Below, in pieces: positions 1 through 12,880 of a stretch of DNA of 46,188 nt. The stretch lies in NCBI RefSeq assembly GCF_005144475.1, contig NZ_SWJZ01000100.1, positions 1-46,188 of the forward strand, written 5' to 3'. Position 1 is the first letter of the stretch. Each line of letters opens with the position of its first letter. The position numbers were made by a program, and so were the translations under genes. This DNA comes from Rhodobacter capsulatus. Lineage in GTDB: Bacteria; Pseudomonadota; Alphaproteobacteria; Rhodobacterales; Rhodobacteraceae. The notes under the pieces were generated by a model. That model saw nothing but the letters and a program-made list of their open reading frames with translations, was not told where the DNA came from and ran no database searches.

Positions 1-1401
1 GGGCTTGGCGCGGGCAGGGCGGCCAGCTTCGCCTCGAGCCCCGCCTTCTGCGCCTCCAGCGCATCCATCTTCGCCTTCATGCTCGGATGGAACATCCCTT
101 CTGTGATCGCCGTGAGGATGTTCTCGATCTCTCTCGTGATCTTGACCAAGGCCCGTTCCGCCTCGACCCGGCCGGCCGCGCTCTCGCGCCGCTCTTTATC
201 CATCTCCCGATGAAACTCCGCGATGAACTCCCGGATCAAGTCAGGATGCATGAGCTATGAGCTGCGTCCTCAACCCGCCCAGAACCCGCGCCTCGACGTC
301 GGTGCGTTTGATCGTCTTGCGATTGGCGCAGGTCCCGGAGTTCCGTGCCGCAGCACAGCCCAGGCGGCTATCGCTGATCATGATATAGCCCGAGCCGCAG
401 CAGCCGCAGGTCAGAAGCCCCGACAGCAGATAGCGGGGGCGATGGCCACGTTCGATCTTGGGGCCGTCGGGATTGGCTACCCGTTCGGTCAGGATATCTT
501 CGCGGATTGCGCCCTGCCGATGTTTGACCCGTGTCCAGAGTTCCTCCTCGATGATGCGCAGGGCCGGGATGTCTTCGATGATCCAAGCATCGGGCGGGTT
601 CGGCCGTGCCTGACGTTTGCCGCTGTCCGGATCCTTCACGAAGTGCTGCCGGTTCCAGACCAGTTTGCCCACATACAGCTCGTTGTTGAGAATGCCCGTG
701 CCGCGCTTCCAGTTGCCCGATATCGTCGAAAAAGACCAAGTGCCCTTGCCGCCTGATCGCGGGGCGGGGATGCCATCGCGGTTCAAGCCGATCGCGATCG
801 CCCGCGCACTGCGCCCCCGGTCATATTCCGTGAAAATCCGCCGAATGATCGCGGCCTCCGCCTCGTCGATCACCCGGTCTCCTGTGGTGTAGGTCCCGTC
901 TGGCAGCGGCTGCCGGTCAAGCCGGTAGCCATAACTCAGCCCTCCCGCCGATTTGCCTGCCTTGACCCGCCCCTCAAGCCCGCGGTGCGTCTTCTCAGCC
1001 AAGTTGCGCAAGAAGAGCGCAGACATCGTGCCGCCAAGACCCACATGCATCTCGCTGATCGCGCCCTCGGCCTTCGTGACGATGTCCACGCCGAGAAACC
1101 GCATCCGCTTGTGCAGCCCAGCAATATGTTCCTGATCGCGCGAAAGCCGGTCGAGCGCCTCGGCGACCAGCACATCGAACTGCTCGGCCATCGCCGCCTG
1201 TTGCAGGCGCTGAAAGCCGGCCCGAAGCTGCGTGGCCCCGCTCATTGCCTCGTCCGCGAAAACCTCCACGACGGTCCAGCCACGCTCTTCGCACAAGCGT
1301 CGACACAGTCGAACCTGATCCGGGATCGAGGCCGCTGACTGAAGATCCGAGGAATACCGCGCCTAGATCGCCGCGCGCAGGGGGGCAGTCCGAGTCGTCA
1401 T
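1..1401 (-). pseudogene. Large serine recombinase, doubly disrupted, running off the left edge
   Basis: This is a site-specific DNA integrase/resolvase of the large serine recombinase family. The ATG at 1401 follows a strong ribosome site (GGAGGTG). Codon 13 is TAG (1363-1365), exactly where relatives carry the Tyr of the (I)YARYSSD catalytic motif; the next residues read ARYSSDLQSAAS, so the nucleophilic Ser codon survives just after the stop. The resolvase domain (ALDRLSRDQE), recombinase domain and zinc-ribbon Cys residues (CGCCG, GCAAARNSGTC) are intact down to about 260. At 250-263 a 7-bp tandem duplication (atgagct twice) shifts the frame and ends the protein at 241. Removing one copy restores an open frame to position 1 encoding the expected C-terminal helical coiled-coil. 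Reinitiation at the ATG at 1296 would give a protein without the catalytic Ser. It is most likely inactive. Confidence 0.9.
250..263. repeat. 7-bp tandem duplication that frameshifts the recombinase
   Basis: Two adjacent copies of atgagct (250-256 and 257-263). Deleting one copy joins the upstream recombinase frame (GGLRTQL) to the downstream frame (MHPDLIREFIAEF), which then stays open to the window edge. This looks like a slippage duplication. Confidence 0.85.
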
Positions 1402-2140
1402 GCTCACCTCCGTCAACTGCCATCAATATCGCACGCGCGCGCCTCGCGCGCAGCTTGTCTCGCCAAAAGCCGTGCCAGCGCGACAAGGCCGGGATGTGGG
1501 GGGCAACTCATGGACAAGGAATCCGGCGCGGTCGACACCGGCAGGGCAGGGGCCGCAGCTTCCACCGCGACCTTCTTCCCACCGACATGCCTGCTCCGGT
1601 CCCGTGCCACGACAGGTTGCTCCCGGCCAAGCCAGAATAAACCCGGCCAGCTCGCTGATTGATGATCCCTGACACCGGGTGGCCCCCGATGCCCTCGAGA
1701 TCAGTATACCAGAGATGCCGACCGCTTCGCCGTGGCCCGTCGAGTAACCCATTGCGATTATTGTGGAAAACCTCCCCGAAAATCCGGAGAACTCTCCACA
1801 GGAAATTCTTTGACCCATTGCGATCACTCCCAAACAGATAGACCGGCGCCCAGGCGCGCCCTGCTTGCGACATGAAAATCCGGATAATCCGGAGCATCGC
1901 TCGTCAGCCGGGCATGCCTGACGCGGTCGCGACAGCCCAGAAACTCCAAAAAAGAAGACAGCGGAAAAGACCGCCGCCGCAGGCGAGGCGCAAATCGCCA
2001 TGAAAAACCGAAAGAGGAAAAAGGTCTGAAAGCTAGGTGCAAAGGAAGACGAGAAAGGGAATAGGAAAGAAGGGGCATCGTGGCGCTGCTCGAAAAGGAG
2101 AAAAAAAGAGGAAAAGGGAAGCAGGGCCTGTGTCCCGCCG
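1402..2140. other. Non-coding stretch with direct repeats and a purine-rich tract
   Basis: I see no convincing gene here. Features: two 12-bp direct repeats acccattgcgat at 1747-1758 and 1813-1824, exactly 66 bp apart; a DnaA-box-like tgtggaaaa (TTTTCCACA on the minus strand) at 1762-1770; repeated aaaatccgga elements near 1783 and 1873; and a strongly A/G-rich plus strand from about 2000 to 2125. Open frames across it translate to low-complexity Ser/Phe or Arg-rich strings and look like noise. It could be a promoter/leader region or an origin-like remnant of the mobile module. Confidence 0.5.
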
Positions 2141-2520
2141 TCACTCCGGACCCTCGATGAGCAATGCGACCTTTTGCGCAAACGCCCGCACGCTATCGCG
2201 AACGTCGGCCCGGAGAGGATTGCGCGTGGCGCAGAGGGTGGAGTTGGCCGGATGGGGCCGTCGTCCTGCCTTCCGAGCCGATACCAGCCCTCTACCGCTC
2301 GAATTGTGCTCGAATCCCAAGCGATATGGACCACCGCGTCGGTCAGAAAGCCAGTCGGCGCGGTCTCGTTCGAGCGGCCCCAGACCCGGGGAACCTGGCC
2401 ATCTCTCAAGCAGATCCAGTCCTCCAGGATCGGTAACCTGTAAAGCTGTTCGGGGTCGATACCGAGGCTGACATCGCGCAACGCCCCGTCGAGGGCGGCG
2501 ATCAGATCGGTTACGGCCAT
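2141..2520 (-). pseudogene. Small conserved-looking protein partnered with the AAA protease, probably frameshifted
   Basis: The first ~85 residues from the ATG at 2520 (MAVTDLIAALDGALRDVSLG, then a GQVPRVWGR segment and WYRLG) look like a genuine globular protein. The reading frame then turns to Pro/Ser-rich noise. The -1 frame carries a credible C-terminus (NPLRADVRDSVRAFAQKV, ending EGPE) that stops at 2141. A single-base indel around 2235-2265, near the gacgacggcccc stretch, would join them into a protein of about 126 residues. The start overlaps the stop of the upstream AAA gene by 10 bp, so the two are translationally coupled. I do not recognise a function. The alternative is that only the N-terminal part is real. 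Confidence 0.55.
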
Positions 2521-4571
2521 TGCGCGTCCTCCTCACCTGCGGGAGCGATCGGCGGAACGCCCGATGGCGTCATCGGCAGAAAAAGGGACTGACGCAGGTC
2601 CTCGCCGGTCAACTCCCGCTCCACGACTAGGCGCGCGGCCAACGCCCGAACCGCTCCGACATGGGGCCGCAGCGTCTCAAGGGCCCGTACCTCCGCAGCC
2701 TCCACGCGCGCGCACACGCGCGGAAACAATTGTGGGGATCGGAGCAGTAGAAGATCGTCTCCGCTTTGCCAGACCGGGCCGGTCTCGCCCAAGCCGAGTT
2801 GCGCTTCGATCGCGGCGGCGAGCCGCGTCGCTTGTGCGAGATCCGAGCTCGCGTCGCCGCCCGCGCCGGCACTCACGTCGCCAAAGATCAAACGCTCGGC
2901 AGCGCGCCCCGCCATCATCGTCGCGAGTTCGCGTTCAAGATCAGCAAGCAGAGCTTGGCTGGGCGCCCGCGTCCGTTCCGTCAGCCCGCCCGCGCCCGCG
3001 ATCGCGATCCGCGTGACCCGCCCAACGCTGAGCGCCGTCGCTGCGAGCGCGTGGCCCGACTCATGCACCGCAACTCGCCAATCGACCGCAGGCTCGGGGG
3101 CGTCTCCGGGCGCATGTGCGAGCATATCGTCGATGGTCAGGTCTCGATCCGCGGCGCGCGCGCGGGACCGCGCGGCGCGGATCATCGCGTCGACCGCCGC
3201 GGCGCTAGCTCCAGTGCAGCGCCGCGCCAACGTCTCGATCTCGGCGGAAGACAGATACGATCCGAGTGCTGCCATCAGCATTGAGAAAATCGCATGCCGA
3301 TCAGGGAGAGGCACCTCGATAGTGCGATCGAACCGACCGGGCCGCCGGATCGCGGCGTCAAGCGCATCGGGATTGTTGCACGCCCCCACGAGGAGCACGC
3401 CCTCTGAGCGGTTGAGCAAGTCGAGCTGCTCGAGAAAACCGTTGACTACTTGCCTGCGATAGCTGGCATTTTGCGAGTCTACGTCATCGCGCGATCCCGC
3501 CGCGTCGATCTCGTCCACAAATAACACGCAGGGACGAGCGGCAACGGCTGCAGCTAAAGACTCCCGCATCGCGGCAAGCATCTGGCCGAGGTGACCGGCC
3601 GATTGCCATGCGGCAAACGACGCTTGAATGCAACGAATGCCCGGCTCGGCGCCCATGGCTTGTGCAAGCCAAGTTTTGCCAGTGCCGGGCGGGCCGAAAA
3701 ACAGGACAGAGTGTTCGATCTCGTTCCACTTCGCCGCGCCAGATTGCCATGCGCGCAACCCGTCAATGAGGCCTCGCGCAGCCTCGACGGCAGGGCACGG
3801 CGAAAGGTCCGAAAGGCAGGGGCCGCCCGGAGCCTGCGCGCAGGCCGCAGCAAGTCGATGCGCCGCGGCGACAGGATCGTCCGCCCGCAACGCGTGCAAA
3901 ATGACGGCTTCGGGCAGGCCCGCGAGATGGCCATCTGGGGGCAGGAATGCTGCCGCCTCGGCGAGGTGCTCAGCCGTGAGATCAGCCGCCGTCGCGCGCC
4001 AATAAGCGCAGAGGATCGCTGTCGAAATCGGTGCGATCTGGATCCGCAATGGCGCGCACGCCGAGAGCGAGGGATCGAGGCCGACGCCGCTCGGCAGCGC
4101 GCTGTTGAAGACGTTGTTGACGATCATCAGCGCGCCGAAAGTGGTCAGCTCGACGATCTGGGTCGGGTTGAACTCGGCCGACAGCCGCTCGAAGAGCGCA
4201 TCGGACACCCGGTTCGGATCCTTGGCGATCTGCGTGCCGTAATCCCAGATCACCTGCTCGCGTTCGTCGAGGTTCAGCTTTTCCGGGTTCTCGCCCCAGC
4301 CCGCGATGGCGCGGCGCATGAAGGTGGTGCACAGCTCGCAGGCATTGGCGCGCGAGATGGCAAAGCAGAACAGGATCGCCTCGCGCTGGCCCAGCCAGGG
4401 TTTGACCGCATCGAACAGCGCATACCATTCGAGCACGGCCTTGAGCGCCACGGGCGAGCGCAGAAGCGTCGCTTTCATGTTGGTCAGCGCATGGGTCTTG
4501 CTGATCTCGTCATGATAGGCGCGGATTTCGGGCGTGGCGGTGGCCAGATTGACCTTGGTGACGCGGGTCAT
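2511..4571 (-). CDS. Chimeric ORF: CMD/AhpD-like domain fused to FtsH-like AAA+ protease (peptidase M41)
   Basis: The 686 residues have two unrelated parts. Residues 1 to ~165 form a carboxymuconolactone-decarboxylase/AhpD-like protein with its CELC redox pair (C78, C81); this length is close to a complete stand-alone CMD protein. From ~170 onward it is an AAA+ ATPase: helical region 180-270, Walker A GPPGTGKT (293-300), Walker B FVDEID (351-356), RRPGRFDR arginine-finger region (409-416), then an M41 zinc protease domain with HESGH (503-507) and a later Asp in SDLAQAT (~577) as probable third ligand. No membrane segment is visible, unlike true FtsH. The start overlaps the aminotransferase stop (ATGA), as expected for the CMD gene. 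I infer that insertion or deletion at the island edge replaced the CMD stop and truncated the ATPase N-terminus. Activity of either half is unknown. Confidence 0.85.
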   Translation of the reverse strand: MTRVTKVNLATATPEIRAYHDEISKTHALTNMKATLLRSPVALKAVLEWYALFDAVKPWLGQREAILFCFAISRANACELCTTFMRRAIAGWGENPEKLNLDEREQVIWDYGTQIAKDPNRVSDALFERLSAEFNPTQIVELTTFGALMIVNNVFNSALPSGVGLDPSLSACAPLRIQIAPISTAILCAYWRATAADLTAEHLAEAAAFLPPDGHLAGLPEAVILHALRADDPVAAAHRLAAACAQAPGGPCLSDLSPCPAVEAARGLIDGLRAWQSGAAKWNEIEHSVLFFGPPGTGKTWLAQAMGAEPGIRCIQASFAAWQSAGHLGQMLAAMRESLAAAVAARPCVLFVDEIDAAGSRDDVDSQNASYRRQVVNGFLEQLDLLNRSEGVLLVGACNNPDALDAAIRRPGRFDRTIEVPLPDRHAIFSMLMAALGSYLSSAEIETLARRCTGASAAAVDAMIRAARSRARAADRDLTIDDMLAHAPGDAPEPAVDWRVAVHESGHALAATALSVGRVTRIAIAGAGGLTERTRAPSQALLADLERELATMMAGRAAERLIFGDVSAGAGGDASSDLAQATRLAAAIEAQLGLGETGPVWQSGDDLLLLRSPQLFPRVCARVEAAEVRALETLRPHVGAVRALAARLVVERELTGEDLRQSLFLPMTPSGVPPIAPAGEEDAQWP

Positions 4572-5956
4572 GGTTTTTTCCTTTGTGTGTTGGCGGGAAG
4601 GACGGCGTGGATGGCGCCGATGACGATGTCGGCGATGGCCTCTAGCTCCGCGTCTGGCGTGGTCAGCGGCGGCGCGAGGCAGATCACGTCGGTGAGCACC
4701 CGGGTCGAGAGGCCGCGGGCGAAGAGCTCGCGGCGCAGGCGTGGTGCCAGATCCGTCTCGGGGCCGAAGCGGCGTTTCGTGGTGCGGTCGGCGACCAGTT
4801 CGATGCCGAAAAGCAGGCCAAGGCCGCGGATGTCGCCCACGTTCGGATGATCGGCAAGCCCGGCGTGCAACCGGCCAAGCAGATGCTTGCCCTGTTGTGC
4901 CGCACGCTCTGCCAGCCCCTCCGCCTCAAGGATGCGGATGGTTTCCAGTGCCACCGCGCAGGCGACCGGATGGGCCGAGGCGGTGAAGCCGTGCCACCAG
5001 CGCTTGGCGGGGGGGGCCGCGTCGAGCGCGGCCTTGATCCGCCCGCTGACCCCGATCCCGCCCAAGGGGATATACCCCGAGGTGATGCCCTTGGCGAATT
5101 GCACGATGTCGGGGCGCACCCCCCACTGCTCGACCGCGAACCAGTGCCCGGTGCGGCCAAAGCCGGTGATCACCTCGTCGGCGATGAAAAGCACATCGTA
5201 GCGGTCGCAGATTTCGCGGATGCGGGGGAAATAGTCGTCTTGCGGCACGATCACCCCGCCGCCGCCGCCCTGCACCGGTTCGGCGATGAAGGCGGCAACG
5301 GTCTCCGGCCCCTCGCGCAGGATGGCCTGTTCCAGCAGATCAGCGGCCTCCTGTCCCGTGCCCTCGAAGCGGTAGGGGTAGGGCGACGGGATGTGCAGGA
5401 TGTCGGGTGCCGGTGGGCCGAAACCCTGCGAGAACTCGGTCACGCCGGTCACGCTCGCCGCCACCCCGGTCGAGCCGTGATAGGAATAATCGCGCGAGAT
5501 GATCTTGGTCTTGCGCGGCTGCCCGACGGATTGCCAGAACCAGCGCGCAGTGCGGACCGAGGTTTCGGTGGCCTCGCTGCCCGAGGTGGTGAAGAAGAAC
5601 GCCTCGATCCCCGGGGGGGCGATCTCGGAGAGTTTTTCGGCCAAGGCCACGCCCGGGCCGTGGCTGGCCCCGGCATAGGTGTTGGCAAAGGCGAGCCGTT
5701 CCAGCTGCGCGGTCGCTGCCGCGATCAGCTCCGGGCGGGCATGCCCGAGGTGAACGTTCCACATGCTGGACAGGCCGTCGATCAGCCGCCGCCCCTCGGC
5801 ATCGATCAGAAAGGCGCCCTCACCTCGCGCCCAAAGCACCGGGGCGGCGTGGTCGACGGGGTGATGTTGCGGATGGATGAGATGGGCGCGGTCAGCGTCG
5901 CGCCAGCCGGAGAGGGTCTCCGCCGCTGCGGAAGGGTTGAGAAAGGGATGGGTCAT
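4568..5956 (-). CDS. Class III (omega) aminotransferase, PLP-dependent
   Basis: A 462-residue cytosolic fold-type I transaminase that would move an amino group from an omega-amine or amino acid to a keto acid such as pyruvate. Visible features are SGSEA (125-129, phosphate binding), YHG (159-161), IADEVITGFGRTG (258-270, with D260 contacting the PLP ring nitrogen) and the Schiff-base Lys K289 in QFAKGITSGY. Length is normal for the family. It sits 6 bp after the APC permease and overlaps the CMD gene start, so the three form one operon, probably uptake then deamination of an amine. Taurine, beta-alanine or polyamines are possible substrates; the sequence does not decide. Confidence 0.9.
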   Translation of the reverse strand: MTHPFLNPSAAAETLSGWRDADRAHLIHPQHHPVDHAAPVLWARGEGAFLIDAEGRRLIDGLSSMWNVHLGHARPELIAAATAQLERLAFANTYAGASHGPGVALAEKLSEIAPPGIEAFFFTTSGSEATETSVRTARWFWQSVGQPRKTKIISRDYSYHGSTGVAASVTGVTEFSQGFGPPAPDILHIPSPYPYRFEGTGQEAADLLEQAILREGPETVAAFIAEPVQGGGGGVIVPQDDYFPRIREICDRYDVLFIADEVITGFGRTGHWFAVEQWGVRPDIVQFAKGITSGYIPLGGIGVSGRIKAALDAAPPAKRWWHGFTASAHPVACAVALETIRILEAEGLAERAAQQGKHLLGRLHAGLADHPNVGDIRGLGLLFGIELVADRTTKRRFGPETDLAPRLRRELFARGLSTRVLTDVICLAPPLTTPDAELEAIADIVIGAIHAVLPANTQRKKP

Positions 5957-5962
5957 GGCGGA

Positions 5963-7390
5963 TCACTCCGCCGGAACGGCTTGGGTGGCGGTTTCGAGAT
6001 CGTCCTCGATCAGCCGCAGCACGTCGGGGTTCGACCAGCGCAGCCAGAGGAAATGCCCGACCCCAAGGCCCAGAAGCCCGAGGAAGGCATAGGGCAGCAG
6101 GTTGAAGGGCGCGGGCGGCACCGGGTAAAGCAGCCCGATCAGCGGCAGCGACAGCAAGCCAACCGAGGCGACGGAAATTGCGACGTGATGCGGGCGCAGC
6201 TCGCCCCGCCGCGCCAGAAACACCGGTGCGCCGATCGCGACAAGGATATAGGCCGCAAGGAAGCCGAGCGTGGCGATGGTGCCGAGCCAGGCGAAGATGT
6301 CGAGCAACCCGTTGCCCGCAAGCGTCAGCGGCAGCGACAGCAGAGCCACGACAAGGGCCGAGATCGCCACCGCGACATGGGGCGTTTCATGCACGTCATG
6401 CGCATCGCCCGCACGGCCGTGGATGATGCCGTGCCGCGAGAGCAGATAGATCACCCGCGCCCCCGCATTGATCGAGGCGAGCGCCGAGGCGAAGAAACTG
6501 GCCGAGACCCCCGCCGCGATCACCGGACCCAGCACGCCAAGGCCAAGCCGCGCGGCGAGCGCCGACAGCGGCGCATCGATGCCGCCAAGGCCGGTCACCT
6601 CGCCCTGAAAGGCCGCGACGAGCACATAGGCCGAGACGGTGAAGAACAGCCCGGTCGCCAGCACCGTGGTGATCACGGACCGCGGGATCACCCGCAGCGG
6701 ATCTTTCGCCTCGTGGCCGAGCACGGTGGCGCTTTCAAAGCCCACGAAAGAGAAGAAGGCGAGCACAAGGCCAAGGCGCAGGTCCTCGCTTTCCACGCCC
6801 TGCAACGTCAGCTGCGCTGGATCAGCCCCCGCCGCGCCTTGCCAAAGCGCGACGCCCAGAACGATCAGCACCGCGCCCACGGTGATCGCCTCGAGCGTCA
6901 GCGACAGTCGGGTCGACAGCCGGATCGAGCGCCAGGCGATGGCGAAGGCTAGCCCGATCGCCAGCGCCGACAGCAGCACCGCGGGCAGGTGGGTGTCAAA
7001 ATCGCCAAAGGCCAGATGCAGCACTTCAAGCGCATAGCTCACCGAGCCCGCCACCACGGCCGCGGCGGTGAAGAGATAGGCGATGACGAGCGACCAGCCC
7101 GCGACCGTGCCCCAGAACGGCCCGAGGCCTTGCCCCGCAAAGGCGTAAAGCGCCCCGGGCGAGGCCGAGCGGCTGGAAAACGCGGTGATGGTGAAGGAAA
7201 GCACCAGAAGCGCCAGCGTGGCGAAGAGATAGGCCAGCCAGGTGCCGTTGCCTGCGGTGGCGAAGACGCCAAGGATCACGAAAGCCGGTGTGCCCGAAGG
7301 GGCGATGGTGCCGACGGCCTGCGCGACAACGTCGAGAAAGGAGAGATGGTCACGCTTCAGCGCGCCCGAAGAGCGTTCGAGAGAGGTCAT
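5963..7390 (-). CDS. APC-superfamily amino acid/amine permease
   Basis: A 475-residue inner-membrane transporter with about 12 hydrophobic segments. The N-terminal motif GTIAPSGTPAF resembles the substrate/ion-site region of TM1 in APC permeases. I chose the ATG at 7390 (MTSLERSSG) because the hydrophobic core begins about 25 residues later and the frame upstream (Pro-rich) does not look coding. It is the first gene of the operon with the class III aminotransferase, suggesting import of the substrate that the aminotransferase uses. A copy of the shared regulatory motif lies about 220 bp upstream on the same strand (7612-7630). Confidence 0.88.
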   Translation of the reverse strand: MTSLERSSGALKRDHLSFLDVVAQAVGTIAPSGTPAFVILGVFATAGNGTWLAYLFATLALLVLSFTITAFSSRSASPGALYAFAGQGLGPFWGTVAGWSLVIAYLFTAAAVVAGSVSYALEVLHLAFGDFDTHLPAVLLSALAIGLAFAIAWRSIRLSTRLSLTLEAITVGAVLIVLGVALWQGAAGADPAQLTLQGVESEDLRLGLVLAFFSFVGFESATVLGHEAKDPLRVIPRSVITTVLATGLFFTVSAYVLVAAFQGEVTGLGGIDAPLSALAARLGLGVLGPVIAAGVSASFFASALASINAGARVIYLLSRHGIIHGRAGDAHDVHETPHVAVAISALVVALLSLPLTLAGNGLLDIFAWLGTIATLGFLAAYILVAIGAPVFLARRGELRPHHVAISVASVGLLSLPLIGLLYPVPPAPFNLLPYAFLGLLGLGVGHFLWLRWSNPDVLRLIEDDLETATQAVPAE

Positions 7391-7611
7391 GGGTCCTGTC
7401 CATGCTGGGAATGTCGTTGGGGAAGGCGGGTGTTGCGGCGACAGCCTCAGGCTGCCGCCCATCTACACGGGTCCGCCGCGCCCTTGACCGAGGCAAGGAT
7501 GATCGCAAACCCGGCAAAACCGGTGACCTCCTTCCAGGGCTGGGGCACAAACGACATCTCGGCCTCTTTCGGCGCTACGGGTGACTTTTCGGATGCTGCA
7601 TCCTCGCCCGC

Positions 7612-7630
7612 AAATCACGACCGATTCAAT
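7612..7630 (-). promoter_or_regulatory. Shared 19-bp motif, copy upstream of the APC permease operon
   Basis: On the minus strand it reads ATTGAA-TCGGT-CGTGATTT. The same hexamer, 5-nt spacer and octamer occur at 24817 and 31261, and a degenerate form at 36330, each upstream of a transport operon. Probable operator for a common regulator. Confidence 0.6.
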
Positions 7631-7858
7631 GGATAATTCTTGGCCTTTCGCGGCGCCCGCGCAGAAGGAATGCGGTGCGCCGCCCGCGCCAGGCGCAAGG
7701 TTTCTTCCCGGCGACGAGTCGGGGGGGCTGCGAAGCCAAGGCGGGCGGATGGCACGGTGGCGGCAATGGCCGCGCGGCGGGGGAATAGCCTTCTCCTCCC
7801 GGCGGCGGGTTTGGAAGCGGGTGTTCGTTTCGCCGGTTTCTTCGCCTGGGCTGTTTTC

Positions 7859-7887
7859 TTGACCCAGTCTTGGGGGGGTGAGATAAA
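7859..7887 (+). promoter_or_regulatory. Candidate sigma70-like promoter of the first ABC importer
   Basis: TTGACC (7859-7864), a 17-bp spacer and GATAAA (7882-7887) lie just before the SBP start. Transcription would begin near 7894, leaving only a short leader. Confidence 0.4.
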
Positions 7888-7911
7888 AAGTTAAATGAAA
7901 TCATATATGTG

Positions 7912-8904
7912 ATGCGATTCATGCCGAGCTTGATACTGACCCGCCGCCGTCTTGGCGCCACTGTGACCGCCGCAGTCCTTGCGGCGGTTCTGGCGCTGCC
8001 CGCGCAGGCCGAAGAGCTGAAGAAGGTGCGCTTCGCCTATCTTCTGTCGGATACGCTGCTCTCGGTCTTTCGTGCGCAAGATCAGGGCTATTTCGCCGCC
8101 GAGGGGCTTGATGTCGATCTGATCCCGGTGCAGGGCGGCCCGGCGGTGATTGCGGCGCTGGCCTCGGGCGAGGCCGATATCGGCTATGCCGCCCCGGTGC
8201 CGCCGCTCAATGCCCGCGCGCAGGGCGTGCCGGTGAAGCTGTTCCTGACGCTCGGCCACGAGGCCGACCCGGATCGCAAATATGTCTGGCTTGTCGCCTC
8301 GAAAGCCTCGGGCGTGACCGCGCTTGCCGATGTGAAGGGCAAGAAGATCGCGATCAACGGCAATGGCACCGGCTGCGAATTGGCGTGGCGCGACCATCTG
8401 GCCGCGGCGGGCCTGTCCTATGACGCGGCAGAGGTGGTGGTGCTGCCCTTCCCGCAGCAGGAAGCCGCGCTTGAACAAGGCACGATCGACGTGGGCTGCG
8501 CGATCCAGCCCTTCTACGCCTCGATTTCGGCGAACCCCGAGATTGGCGCCAAGGTGATCGCGCGCGGTCTGCTCGCCGATGAAAAGGAGCCGGTGATTTC
8601 CGACAGCGTGATCGGCACCGATGCCTGGCTGGCCGAAAACGAGGACACCGCCAAGGCCTTCGCCCATGCGGTGGTGAAGGCGCGCGACGAGTTGCTGGCG
8701 AACCGGACGCTGGTCGAAGAGGCGGCGGTGAAATATCTCGACCTGACGCCGGAACTGGCGAAAACGCTCGATTATTCCGTGCTCAAGCCCGAGGTGGACG
8801 TGAAGCCCGGCGAGGTGCAGCGGATCCTCGATGCCTTGGTCAAGGCGGGCATCCTCAAGACGCCGCTTGCGGCCGCGGATGTTTCGATCGATCTGAAGCT
8901 CTGA
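7912..8904 (+). CDS. ABC transporter periplasmic substrate-binding protein, NitT/TauT type
   Basis: About 330 residues. An N-terminal export signal holds TRRRLG followed by a hydrophobic stretch and a probable cleavage after PAQA. It is a type II periplasmic binding protein (SsuA/TauA/THI5-like): KVRFAYLLSD, then GYFAAEGLDVDL and a segment matching DIGYAAP are typical of sulfonate/nitrate/taurine/pyrimidine-precursor binders. Three in-frame starts lie close together (GTG 7909, ATG 7912, ATG 7921) without a clear Shine-Dalgarno; 7912 is a compromise. It is the first gene of an SBP-ATPase-permease-permease-sulfatase operon. The substrate is probably an anionic organosulfur or organic compound, inferred from the sulfatase downstream. 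Confidence 0.88.
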   Translation: MRFMPSLILTRRRLGATVTAAVLAAVLALPAQAEELKKVRFAYLLSDTLLSVFRAQDQGYFAAEGLDVDLIPVQGGPAVIAALASGEADIGYAAPVPPLNARAQGVPVKLFLTLGHEADPDRKYVWLVASKASGVTALADVKGKKIAINGNGTGCELAWRDHLAAAGLSYDAAEVVVLPFPQQEAALEQGTIDVGCAIQPFYASISANPEIGAKVIARGLLADEKEPVISDSVIGTDAWLAENEDTAKAFAHAVVKARDELLANRTLVEEAAVKYLDLTPELAKTLDYSVLKPEVDVKPGEVQRILDALVKAGILKTPLAAADVSIDLKL

Positions 8905-8908
8905 GCCG

Positions 8909-9697
8909 ATGACGGCTTTGCTTGAGGCCGTGGGGCTGGCCAGGGTCTTCCCCGACCGACCCGATCCGGTCGAGATCCTGAAAGAGATCTCCTTTTCTGT
9001 CGCGCCCGAGGAATTCGTCTCCATCGTCGGCCCCTCGGGCTGCGGCAAGACCACGCTTTTGATGTGTCTGGCGGGGTTGTTGCCGCCGTCGTCGGGCACG
9101 GTGCGGTTTCGCGGTCAGCCCGTGACCGAGCCGCCGCGCGGGGTTTCGGTGGTGTTTCAGGATTATTCCCGCTCGCTTCTGCCGTGGAAATCGGCGCGCG
9201 AGAACGTCACTTTGGGGATGCGCCGGCTTGGCCTTGGGCGGGCCGCGGCGCGCGATCGCGCCGATGACCTGCTGGCCGAGGTGGGGCTCTCGGGGTTTGA
9301 AGGTCATTTCCCGTGGCAGCTTTCGGGCGGCATGCAGCAGCGCGTGGCGATCGCGCGGGCGCTGGCGGCGGAAAGCGCGCTTCTCTTGCTCGATGAACCG
9401 CTGGCCGCCGTCGACGCGCAGACCCGCGCCGATCTGCAGGATCTGCTGCGCAGGCTGGCGCGCAAGTTCCGGCAAGCCTGCCTTCTGGTCACGCATGACG
9501 TCGACGAGGCGGTTTACATGGCGGATCGGGTGCTGGTGCTCAGCCGCCGCCCGACGCGGATCCTGCGCGAAGTGCCGCTTGCGCTGGGGGGCGAGCGCGA
9601 CCAGATCGACACCCGTGAGCGGCCCGATTATCTGGCGGCGCGGCACGAGATCCTGACGCTGATCCGCGCCGCGCGACCCGAGGGGGCAGGGGCATGA
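8909..9697 (+). CDS. ABC transporter ATPase, NitT/TauT type
   Basis: A 262-residue nucleotide-binding subunit energising the importer. Walker A GPSGCGKT (41-48), Q-loop FQD (83-85), signature LSGGMQQR (138-145), Walker B with LDEP (161-164) and the H-loop in LVTHDVDEAV. The THDVDEAVY segment is typical of the nitrate/sulfonate/taurine branch. It starts 4 bp after the SBP stop, and its stop overlaps the next ATG by 4 bp (ATGA). Confidence 0.93.
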   Translation: MTALLEAVGLARVFPDRPDPVEILKEISFSVAPEEFVSIVGPSGCGKTTLLMCLAGLLPPSSGTVRFRGQPVTEPPRGVSVVFQDYSRSLLPWKSARENVTLGMRRLGLGRAAARDRADDLLAEVGLSGFEGHFPWQLSGGMQQRVAIARALAAESALLLLDEPLAAVDAQTRADLQDLLRRLARKFRQACLLVTHDVDEAVYMADRVLVLSRRPTRILREVPLALGGERDQIDTRERPDYLAARHEILTLIRAARPEGAGA

Positions 9698-10458
9698 TCG
9701 CGGTCCTGCGCCCGGCCCTTGCGCTTGCGCTTCTGGCGGCGCTTTGGCAGGCGGTGGTCTGGGCCGCTTTCGTGCCCGAACGCTATTTCCCGCCGATCGC
9801 CACGGTGGTGCAGGCGGGCCTGTCGATGATTGCCCGCGGCCAGATGCAGCAGACCCTGTTCGACACCGGATCGCGGGCGATCCTCGGGGCGGTGGCGGTC
9901 AATCTGATCGGCATCGGGCTGGGGCTTGCGGCCACGGGGGCGCCCAGCCTGCGCCGCATCCTTGATACGGTGGCGGCGATCTTGCAACCGGTTCCGCCTG
10001 CCGCCGTGGTGCCGATGGCGGTTTTCGCGCTGGGCCTTGGCTGGAAGCTTTACGCCTTCGTCGTGGTGCTGGTGACGATCTGGCCGCCCTATCTGGCCAC
10101 GGTCTCGGCGCTGGCTGCGACGCATCCGGTGCTGCTCTCGGTGGGGCGGATGGCGGGCTTTGGCCCGCTGGGCCTGCTTTGGCACATCCGCCTGCCCGCC
10201 GCGATGCCCGAGATCCTGGCGGGGGTGCGCTATGCCACCACCATCGCGCTGATTGCGGTGATCGTCTCCGAGATGATCACCGGCCGCGACGGCATCGGAT
10301 TTTTGTTGTTTCAAAAGGCCTTCGCCATCCGCATCCCCGAGGTTTTCGCGTTGATGTTCGCGGTCGGACTGCTGGGCAGTGCAATGGGGCTGGCCGTGAA
10401 CGCGGTCTACCGCAGTGTCGCGGGCTGGCATCTGGCGCAGCGGGGCAGGGCGGCATGA
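9694..10458 (+). CDS. ABC transporter permease, NitT/TauT type (first)
   Basis: A 254-residue membrane subunit with about six transmembrane helices of the BPD_transp_1 fold. The EAA-like cytoplasmic loop, which contacts the ATPase, lies around GRMAGFGPLGLLWHIRLPAA. It overlaps both neighbours by ATGA junctions, so it is co-translated. A second, different permease follows directly, so the channel is probably a heterodimer, whereas SsuC/TauC channels are usually homodimers. Confidence 0.9.
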   Translation: MIAVLRPALALALLAALWQAVVWAAFVPERYFPPIATVVQAGLSMIARGQMQQTLFDTGSRAILGAVAVNLIGIGLGLAATGAPSLRRILDTVAAILQPVPPAAVVPMAVFALGLGWKLYAFVVVLVTIWPPYLATVSALAATHPVLLSVGRMAGFGPLGLLWHIRLPAAMPEILAGVRYATTIALIAVIVSEMITGRDGIGFLLFQKAFAIRIPEVFALMFAVGLLGSAMGLAVNAVYRSVAGWHLAQRGRAA

Positions 10459-11216
10459 GGCGTCTTTTCCTCCATCCCGCCACTGTGCTGATCGCCGCGC
10501 TGCTGGCCTGGCAGATCGTGGCCCTGGTCAAGACGACGCCGCTGTTTCCCGGTCCGCTCGACGTGGTGGGGGCGCTTTGGGAAGATGGCCCGCGGCTCGT
10601 CCGCGAAATCGGCCACACCCTGCGCCGCGCCTTCGCGGGCTTTGCGCTGGCCGCGCTGACGATGATCCCGCTTGGGCTTGCGATGGGGCGCATCCGTGCG
10701 CTGGCCTTCGTGGGCGAGCCGCTGGTCGCCATGCTCGCCACCCTGCCGCCGCCCGCGACGGTGCCGGTGGTGATGCTGTTTGCGGGGACCGGCGATCTGG
10801 CAAAGATCCTTGTCATCGCCTATGCCGCCGCCGTTCCGCTGGTGATCAATGCCGCCGAGGCCGCGCGCAACCTGCATCCGATGCTGGGCCTCGTCGGGCG
10901 CTCTTTGAGGCTGACAAGGCTCGAAACCCTGCGGCTGATCGCGCTGCCCTCGGCGCTGCCGATGCTGGCCGTGGCCGCGCGCATGGCGGCTTCGGCGGCG
11001 CTTCTGGTCTCGATCACCTCGGAAATGCTGCTTTCGAGCAATGGCATCGGCAACTACCTGCAGCGCGAACAGGAAAACTTTCGCCTTGATGCGGGCCTTG
11101 CCGGGATCGTGCTGATCTCGGTCGTGGGCCTGATCCTGAACCGGCTCATCGCCGCGTCCGAACGGCGCTGGCTGGGCTGGCATTACCAATCCCGAACCGC
11201 GGAGACAGAGGCATGA
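10455..11216 (+). CDS. ABC transporter permease, NitT/TauT type (second)
   Basis: 253 residues with about six transmembrane helices and an EAA-like loop around GRSLRLTRLETLRLIALPSA. The start at 10455 is fixed by the ATGA overlap with the preceding permease. Its stop overlaps the sulfatase ATG in the same way, so the hydrolase belongs to the transporter operon. Confidence 0.9.
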   Translation: MRRLFLHPATVLIAALLAWQIVALVKTTPLFPGPLDVVGALWEDGPRLVREIGHTLRRAFAGFALAALTMIPLGLAMGRIRALAFVGEPLVAMLATLPPPATVPVVMLFAGTGDLAKILVIAYAAAVPLVINAAEAARNLHPMLGLVGRSLRLTRLETLRLIALPSALPMLAVAARMAASAALLVSITSEMLLSSNGIGNYLQREQENFRLDAGLAGIVLISVVGLILNRLIAASERRWLGWHYQSRTAETEA

Positions 11217-12880
11217 GCCCGACGCAGAACGTGCTTTTCATCATGTGCGACCAGTTGCGCTTCGATTATCTGTCCTGCGCCGGGCATCCGACGCTGCGCA
11301 CGCCCAATATCGACGCGCTGGCCGCGCAGGGCGTGCGGTTTGACCGTGCCTATGCGCAATCGCCCATTTGCGGCCCGTCGCGGATGAGCACCTACACCGG
11401 GCGCTACATGCGCTCGCATGGCTCGACGCAGAACGGTGTTCCCCTGCGGGCAGGCGAGCCGACGCTGGGCGATCATCTGGCCGAGATCGGCGTACGCAAC
11501 GTGCTGGTGGGCAAGACGCATATGGTGGCCGACCGCGCGGGGCTGGCGCGGCTGGGCATCGACCCGGCGTCAGAGATCGGCGTGCGGGCCGCGCAATGCG
11601 GTTTCGAGCCTTACGAGCGCGACGACGGGCTGCACCCCGATGGCGGATACGATCCGGCGCCCGCCTATGACACGTATCTGCGCGCGCAGGGCTTTGACGC
11701 CGAGAACCCGTGGGAATACTGGGCGAATTCTGCCGAAGGCGCGCAGGGCGAAACCTTGAACGGCTGGCTTCTGGTGCATGGCGACAAGCCCGCCCGCATT
11801 CCCGCCGAGCATTCCGAAACCGCTTACATGACCGCGCGCGCGATCGATTTCATCGAGGGCGCGGCGGCGGCGGGCCAGCCCTGGTGCCTGCATCTGTCCT
11901 TCATCAAGCCGCATTGGCCCTATATCGCGCCTGCGCCCTATCATGCGCTTTACGGGCCAACGGATGTGAAACCGGCGGTCCGTTCCGACGCCGAGCAGAC
12001 TGAGGCCGCGCATCCGATCTTCCGCGCCTTTCAACAGGAACGCTATGCGCAAAGCTTCGCGCGCGACGAGGTCCGCGAAAGGGTGATCCCGGCCTATATG
12101 GGTCTCATTGCGCAGATTGATGACGAGGTCGGCCGTCTGCTGCGGTTTCTGGACGACAAGGGCCTGCGCGACAGCACGCTGATCGTGTTCACCGCCGATC
12201 ATGGCGATTATCTGGGCGATCACTGGCTGGGCGAAAAGCAGCTCTTCCATGATGTGTCGGCGAAAGTGCCGCTGATCGTGGTCGATCCCGCGCCCGCCGC
12301 CGATGCGACGCGCGGCACGGTCAACCGCGATCTGGTCGAACTGATCGACCTCGCGCCCACCTTCCTCGACTGGTTCGGGGGCGCGCCGAAGCCGCATGTG
12401 CTGGAGGGTCATTCGCTTTTGTCCCTCACCCGCGCCAGTGCGCCGGGGCCTTTGCGCGCCCATGCGGTCAGCGAATATGATTACGCCGTCGATGGCGTGC
12501 GCCGCCGCCTTGGCACGAAGGTGCGCGATTGTCGGCTGGTGATGATCACCGATGGCCGCTTCAAGCTGATCACCGCACCGGGGTTCCGGCCGATCCTGTT
12601 CGATCTGGACACCGACCCGGGCGAGCTGACCGATCTGGGCGCCGATCCCGCGCAGGCCGAGACGATTGCACGGCTGACGGCGGCGCTGCTTGACTGGTAT
12701 CGCGGCGCGGCGAACCGCATCACCGTCAGTGACGGGTGGTTCAGTGATGGCGACGCGGCCGCCGAGGCCTTCGATCCGCTGCTCGATCCGGGGATTTTGA
12801 TCGGCTACTGGGACGAGGCCGAGCTGGAGGCCGAGAGCACCAAGCGGGCGGCATGGCGGGCGGCGCGGGCCGGGAGATGA
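11213..12880 (+). CDS. Sulfatase-family hydrolase (formylglycine type)
   Basis: A 555-residue hydrolase of the alkaline-phosphatase superfamily that cleaves sulfate (or phosphonate) esters. The nucleophile motif CGPSR (53-57) matches C-x-P-S-R, in which the Cys is converted to formylglycine by a maturase not present here. Metal and active-site residues include D13, KTHM (from K101), KPHW (H234) and the DHGDYLGDH segment (from D329). No signal peptide is visible, so it should act in the cytoplasm on an imported ester. It is translationally coupled to the ABC permease, so the importer probably delivers its substrate. An aryl or alkyl sulfatase is likeliest; a phosphonate monoester hydrolase is possible. 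Confidence 0.88.
   Translation: MSPTQNVLFIMCDQLRFDYLSCAGHPTLRTPNIDALAAQGVRFDRAYAQSPICGPSRMSTYTGRYMRSHGSTQNGVPLRAGEPTLGDHLAEIGVRNVLVGKTHMVADRAGLARLGIDPASEIGVRAAQCGFEPYERDDGLHPDGGYDPAPAYDTYLRAQGFDAENPWEYWANSAEGAQGETLNGWLLVHGDKPARIPAEHSETAYMTARAIDFIEGAAAAGQPWCLHLSFIKPHWPYIAPAPYHALYGPTDVKPAVRSDAEQTEAAHPIFRAFQQERYAQSFARDEVRERVIPAYMGLIAQIDDEVGRLLRFLDDKGLRDSTLIVFTADHGDYLGDHWLGEKQLFHDVSAKVPLIVVDPAPAADATRGTVNRDLVELIDLAPTFLDWFGGAPKPHVLEGHSLLSLTRASAPGPLRAHAVSEYDYAVDGVRRRLGTKVRDCRLVMITDGRFKLITAPGFRPILFDLDTDPGELTDLGADPAQAETIARLTAALLDWYRGAANRITVSDGWFSDGDAAAEAFDPLLDPGILIGYWDEAELEAESTKRAAWRAARAGR

Follow-up and report, generated by a model that had tools for sequence, protein, structure and literature searches.

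Why a single open reading frame of Rhodobacter capsulatus should join a CMD/AhpD-like protein to an FtsH-like protease is the question raised by this locus, which lies in a window of 46,188 nucleotides (the whole stretch of DNA that was analysed). The first-pass annotation had described an unbroken frame at 2511-4571 with a CELC motif, a Walker A motif, HESGH, an ATGA overlap with the stop of an aminotransferase gene and a product of about 72 kDa, all of which we find as described (Table 1). CELC occupies residues 78-81, GPPGTGKT residues 293-300 (Walker A), VLFVDEID residues 349-356, HESGH residues 503-507 and SDLAQAT residues 576-582, and the predicted mass is 72.9 kDa. The AAA+/M41 superfamily features (Walker A, Walker B, HExxH and the third zinc ligand region) are present, and we take the residues concerned to have their assigned catalytic roles; Pfam detects AAA (1e-29) and Peptidase_M41 (9.8e-14). 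Judged by sequence comparison, the frame is a true fusion of an AhpD/CMD-like front and an accessory AAA+/M41 protease back. We claim no role in defence, the PADLOC match being confined to the AAA region (best IetA, residues 284-477).

Table 1. Coordinates of the fusion frame, its parts and its neighbours in the window.
Feature	Position	Strand	Remarks
Fusion ORF	2511-4571	minus (4571→2511)	686 codons/aa, ATG start
CMD/AhpD-like head, fusion residues 1-159	4095..4571	(-)	95-96% identity to intact G009 gene; model-structure match
AAA+/M41 protease, C-terminal ~525 residues	2514..4094	(-)	78% identity to C71 paralogue; Pfam AAA, M41
Breakpoint, 5-bp overlap GCTGC common to CMD and ATPase sides	4094-4098	(-)	C71 and G009 DNA comparisons
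Class III aminotransferase, upstream operon gene	4568-5956	(-)	ATGA overlap with CMD start
Small partner ORF region	2200..2520	(-)	Matches 129-aa C71 ORF, 60% identity over 109 aligned positions
Large serine recombinase remnant	3..1407	(-)	Pfam Resolvase, Recombinase, Zn_ribbon_recom; cut by contig end

The head, which had been described as near-complete but drawn out to about residue 165, is indeed near-complete and ends at residue 159. It closely resembles an intact 179-aa gene in a genome of the same genus (G009), the final 20 residues of which are absent from the fusion. Pfam finds no family in the head at E<=0.1, and of the 16 relatives aligned with it only one reaches CMD, at 0.059. The TIGR01926 model of peroxidase-related enzymes matches at 2.8e-10 (40 bits, under the model cutoff of 82), and profile comparison linked the head to four PDB sequences of peroxidase-related or AhpD-type proteins (best E 1.5e-4). 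An AlphaFold model of residues 1-165 (mean pLDDT 87) matches crystal structures of CMD/AhpD proteins, namely 3lvy_B and 6e8l_B (query TM 0.72 and 0.71, respectively; probability 1.00; E 3-4e-4). According to this model, the head has a CxxC motif within an all-helical AhpD-type fold, as do the AhpD/CMD-like peroxidase-related proteins (TIGR01926; PDB 3lvy, 6e8l, 2prr), from which it differs in its weak sequence similarity, which stays under the TIGR01926 cutoff and gives no Pfam CMD (PF02627) match, and in having its C-terminal tail swapped for protease sequence. The last core helix of the model spans residues 136-157, just before the CMD part ends, and the CMD core of the chimera may still fold. 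Modelling of the entire fusion gave a poor result (mean pLDDT 54) because the alignment contained CMD relatives only, and we draw nothing from the protease part of that model.

From residue ~160 on, the fusion corresponds to the C-terminal portion of an unfused 726-aa paralogue on contig C71 of the same genome (G000:C71), with 78% identity over the common part and ~195 N-terminal protease residues absent. Since several homologues in other genomes align to the N-terminal part of the C71 protein, from residue 38 or about 93, that part is native. The AAA-then-M41 order and the HExxH motif are common to the fusion and FtsH itself (an AAA+ M41 zinc metalloprotease; PDB 2ce7), but the fusion scores 151.7 bits against the FtsH equivalog TIGR01241, far under the cutoff of 600, and the intact C71 paralogue has no strong membrane segment (its best 19-residue hydropathy window is 1.94, whereas the host FtsH reaches 2.69 close to its N-terminus). 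It is thus not clear that fusion is what makes the protease soluble, as had been proposed, since the paralogue already seems to be so. The same AAA-M41 core is found in accessory proteins annotated 'AAA family ATPase' on alphaproteobacterial plasmids and islands (Paracoccus, Sulfitobacter, Rhizobium and others). Among the 30 matches listed of 47 in plasmids, identity to the fusion is 37-53%, and 29 of the 30 match only from residue 159 or later; a Tritonibacter plasmid match starting at residue 114 is an unfused protease whose N-terminus aligns with that of the C71 protein rather than with CMD. In this accessory family the N-terminal region is poorly conserved, with 22 conserved columns (same residue in >=70% of >=12 sequences) before C71 residue 196 and 167 after it. 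Some family members lie in other surroundings: a relative on Thioclava plasmid p5 (L101) is near a SAVED-domain gene and a nucleotidyltransferase, and two plasmid-borne relatives (L098, L103) directly follow a GIY-YIG nuclease gene. Decay is not unusual in the family, because two other copies look broken (L095 in two frames, L037 with two internal stops).

How the two parts came together can be read from their parents. The C71 paralogue begins to align, as DNA, at 4098 and CMD identity with G009 runs to 4094, where synteny with G009 stops; over positions 4084-12117, which take in the G009 stretch compared up to its end, the window and G009 are collinear at 92%. A junction had been predicted near 4060-4090, and it exists, slightly outside that range. 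Overlaps of at least 5 bp arise in 0.9% of random cut pairs (200,000 trials). The overlap at the breakpoint is itself a reconstruction, because the true parent copy of the fused ATPase was not found in our searches and the comparison rests on the 78% C71 paralogue and on the CMD gene of another species. The whole ATPase that the first-pass annotation suggested looking for elsewhere was thus recovered only as a paralogue. The expected assignment of the front to the aminotransferase operon and of the back to a recombinase module agrees with the G009 synteny and the C71 gene order, and the postulated deletion of the CMD stop and the ATPase N-terminus is borne out by comparison with G009 (20 CMD residues gone) and C71 (~195 protease residues gone).

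The losses extend beyond the frame. In G009, the intact CMD gene has the same aminotransferase upstream (dS 0.31, dN 0.018 relative to that of the window) and, 12 bases downstream, a gene for O-acetylhomoserine sulfhydrylase (OAHS) that passes the TIGR01326 cutoff (616 vs 495 bits). A scan of genome contigs for CMD gave 17 loci, namely 15 full-length CMD genes, one fragment (L067) and one match to AAA only (L068). All 15 full-length relatives stop at 179-195 aa, unfused, and have a conserved tail that is cut off in the fusion. An OAHS-like gene, 73-88% identical to that of G009, adjoins CMD in all 15, directly downstream in 14 and directly upstream in one (L054). Since the genes adjoin at these 15 loci and in G009, the CMD/AhpD-like gene and OAHS may well form a functional pair, as the recurring arrangement suggests. 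This rare pairing occurs in Chlorobiaceae, Omnitrophota, Magnetospirillum and others (L010:136-1992; L052-L066). No OAHS orthologue was found in the window's genome assembly (best 50% for protein, 66% for DNA), nor was a loose protease N-terminus, as residues 1-195 of the C71 protein match C71 alone in the same genome (23 of 23 candidates scored). A wider scan on the protease, with at most 7 candidates scored per genome, gave at least 7 of 394 genomes. With OAHS and a loose protease N-terminus both missing from the window's genome, the event was a truncation or replacement rather than a tidy insertion, as far as the assembly shows. As the contig breaks off some 4 kb beyond the junction, the remainder may survive in an unassembled stretch.

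Next to the protease part lie the small partner region, whose open frame extends to 1423, and a large serine recombinase. The order protease, small ORF, large serine recombinase is common to the window and C71, and a recombinase match lies downstream on the same strand at 9 of 20 protease loci (several of these loci share a genome and several are truncated by contig ends; two of the nine matches, L037 at a contig edge and L086, are partial and one, L035, is the query's own locus), versus none of 35 control loci, which total 334 kb and include 19 short ones (3-4 kb). The recombinase-linked loci are window 3-4098, L035, L037, L044, L082, L085-L088 and L094. Taken at the level of predicted genes, a soluble-looking FtsH-like AAA+/M41 protease and a large serine recombinase, sometimes with a small ORF, constitute a recurrent module. 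In the window it is a remnant, since two lesions break the recombinase beside the fusion: a frameshift near 250-270, and a stop in frame within the early part of the catalytic domain. The presence of a large serine recombinase gene on the same strand, at a distance of 2.7 kb from the junction, and the recurrence of recombinase matches downstream of the ATPase at the nine loci, could indicate that the recombinase inserted its element into CMD by site-specific integration, with crossover inside the ATPase and a circular form carrying the intact ATPase gene. However, the other halves of both genes would then be expected at the far end, and the assembly holds neither an OAHS orthologue nor a second ATPase N-terminus; moreover, ATPase homology in several relatives runs straight through the join point, which is thus not a general attachment site. 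We regard such integration as unlikely. The original description of an island/chromosome junction therefore stands as far as a junction fusion is concerned, but not as a tidy insertion, as sequence is lost on both sides and the module is a remnant.

A more trivial scenario is that the two pieces lie apart in the cell and were brought together only in the assembly. The genome is a draft of 170 contigs, and the first 86 bases of the contig (window 1-86) are identical to the end of C71 (L035:8424-8509), inside the recombinase gene. Two contigs (C4 and C71) ending in the same 86 bases look like a typical assembly break at a repeat. However, this repeat is 4 kb away from the junction, where only about 5 bp are common to both sides, presumably too short for the usual graph misjoin, and the protease part differs from C71 at 22% of residues and so is not that copy misplaced. 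An assembly chimera would therefore come as a considerable surprise.

If the fusion were an established protein, it should recur. The first-pass annotation had reasoned that widespread fusions of this kind in unrelated genomes would mark an established architecture, and no other fusion turned up among the 15 CMD relatives, the 47 matching plasmid records, 60 relatives (in which the head is matched by G009 only) or the other 393 and 384 genomes of the family and class sets. The CMD head occurs in two of 18 genus genomes, that of the window included, and the other copy is unfused. At E<=1e-20 the head is found in the window's genome alone, both among 394 family genomes (no match in the other 393) and among 385 class genomes (no match in the other 384). 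Of 72,556 plasmid records, none of the 47 matching the fusion covers 80% of it, nor do any of 13 phage records with FtsH-like partial matches, and viral contigs gave no match to the fusion; kin very near the window's genome may be absent from these plasmid, phage and viral-contig searches and from the contig scan for CMD. The listings returned by literature searches contained nothing on a CMD-AAA-M41 fusion or on the module. With a single genome to its name, CMD-AAA-M41 does not appear to be an established architecture.

Could the chimera nevertheless be a selected, working AhpD-headed protease? Its frame is open, the AAA and M41 motifs are intact, the CMD core is modelled up to its last helix, and the poorly conserved N-terminal region may mean that a head swap is tolerated. 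By its position it would be translationally coupled to the aminotransferase, and expression is predicted. No decay is visible, so a functional fusion is still conceivable: the motifs are kept, conserved columns are changed at 6 of 95 in the fusion and 8 of 95 in the C71 paralogue, and the protease part gives dN 0.137 and dS 0.641 against C71, a ratio of 0.21 that mostly reflects time before fusion (compare 0.10 for the recombinase and 0.095 for CMD versus G009). In relative-rate tests with 16 mutually non-independent outgroups, chi-square exceeds 3.84 in two (L082, L085), the fusion being faster in both; unique changes are more numerous in the fusion than in the paralogue with 11 outgroups, fewer with three and equal with two. 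The rates lean slightly towards a faster fusion, and decay is not called. Since the protease part is not clearly faster-evolving than its paralogue, the fusion is probably recent. Against a selected protein stand its occurrence in a single genome, the loss of both the conserved CMD tail and part of the protease N-terminal region, the decaying recombinase beside it, and the ease with which chance yields such frames: 190 of 601 simulated joins, about one third, keep a frame of 600 or more codons, so that an open frame gives no indication of selection. The proposal of a redox-active, adaptor-like head is unsupported on the same two counts, a single genome and the simulated joins. We therefore consider a selected, working protease very doubtful. 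By the same token, there is little chance that the metabolic operon yields the chimera as a soluble AAA+ protease in which an AhpD-type head replaces the variable N-terminal region, a very recent natural head swap; were this true, the new head could change which proteins the chimera degrades.

A much more likely scenario is an illegitimate, microhomology-assisted rearrangement that cut a metabolic operon short by setting it against a mobile module in decay. The chromosomal aminotransferase-CMD operon would have become connected to an internal point of an accessory AAA+/M41 protease gene in a serine-recombinase module, removing the 20-residue CMD tail and what followed, the OAHS gene included, along with the first ~195 codons of the protease gene, and the join would have fallen in frame by chance, yielding the 686-codon chimera. 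We infer the mechanism and the recency of this rearrangement; the two parent families, the breakpoint, the losses within the assembly and the broken recombinase are apparent from the sequences compared. Function is unlikely, and the chimera is most likely a neutral or mildly harmful by-product whose AAA-M41 part is without its N-terminal region.

The locus thus offers a clean and readily traced case of a rearrangement at a mobile module giving rise to a chimeric ORF and a cut operon, with relatives of both parents identified, and it would gain further significance only if the hybrid protein proved to be produced and active. Annotators should also be aware that a protein labelled 'AAA family ATPase' of the accessory AAA-M41 type can turn out to be a truncated hybrid. 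The recurrent module of predicted protease and recombinase genes is perhaps of greater interest than the fusion.
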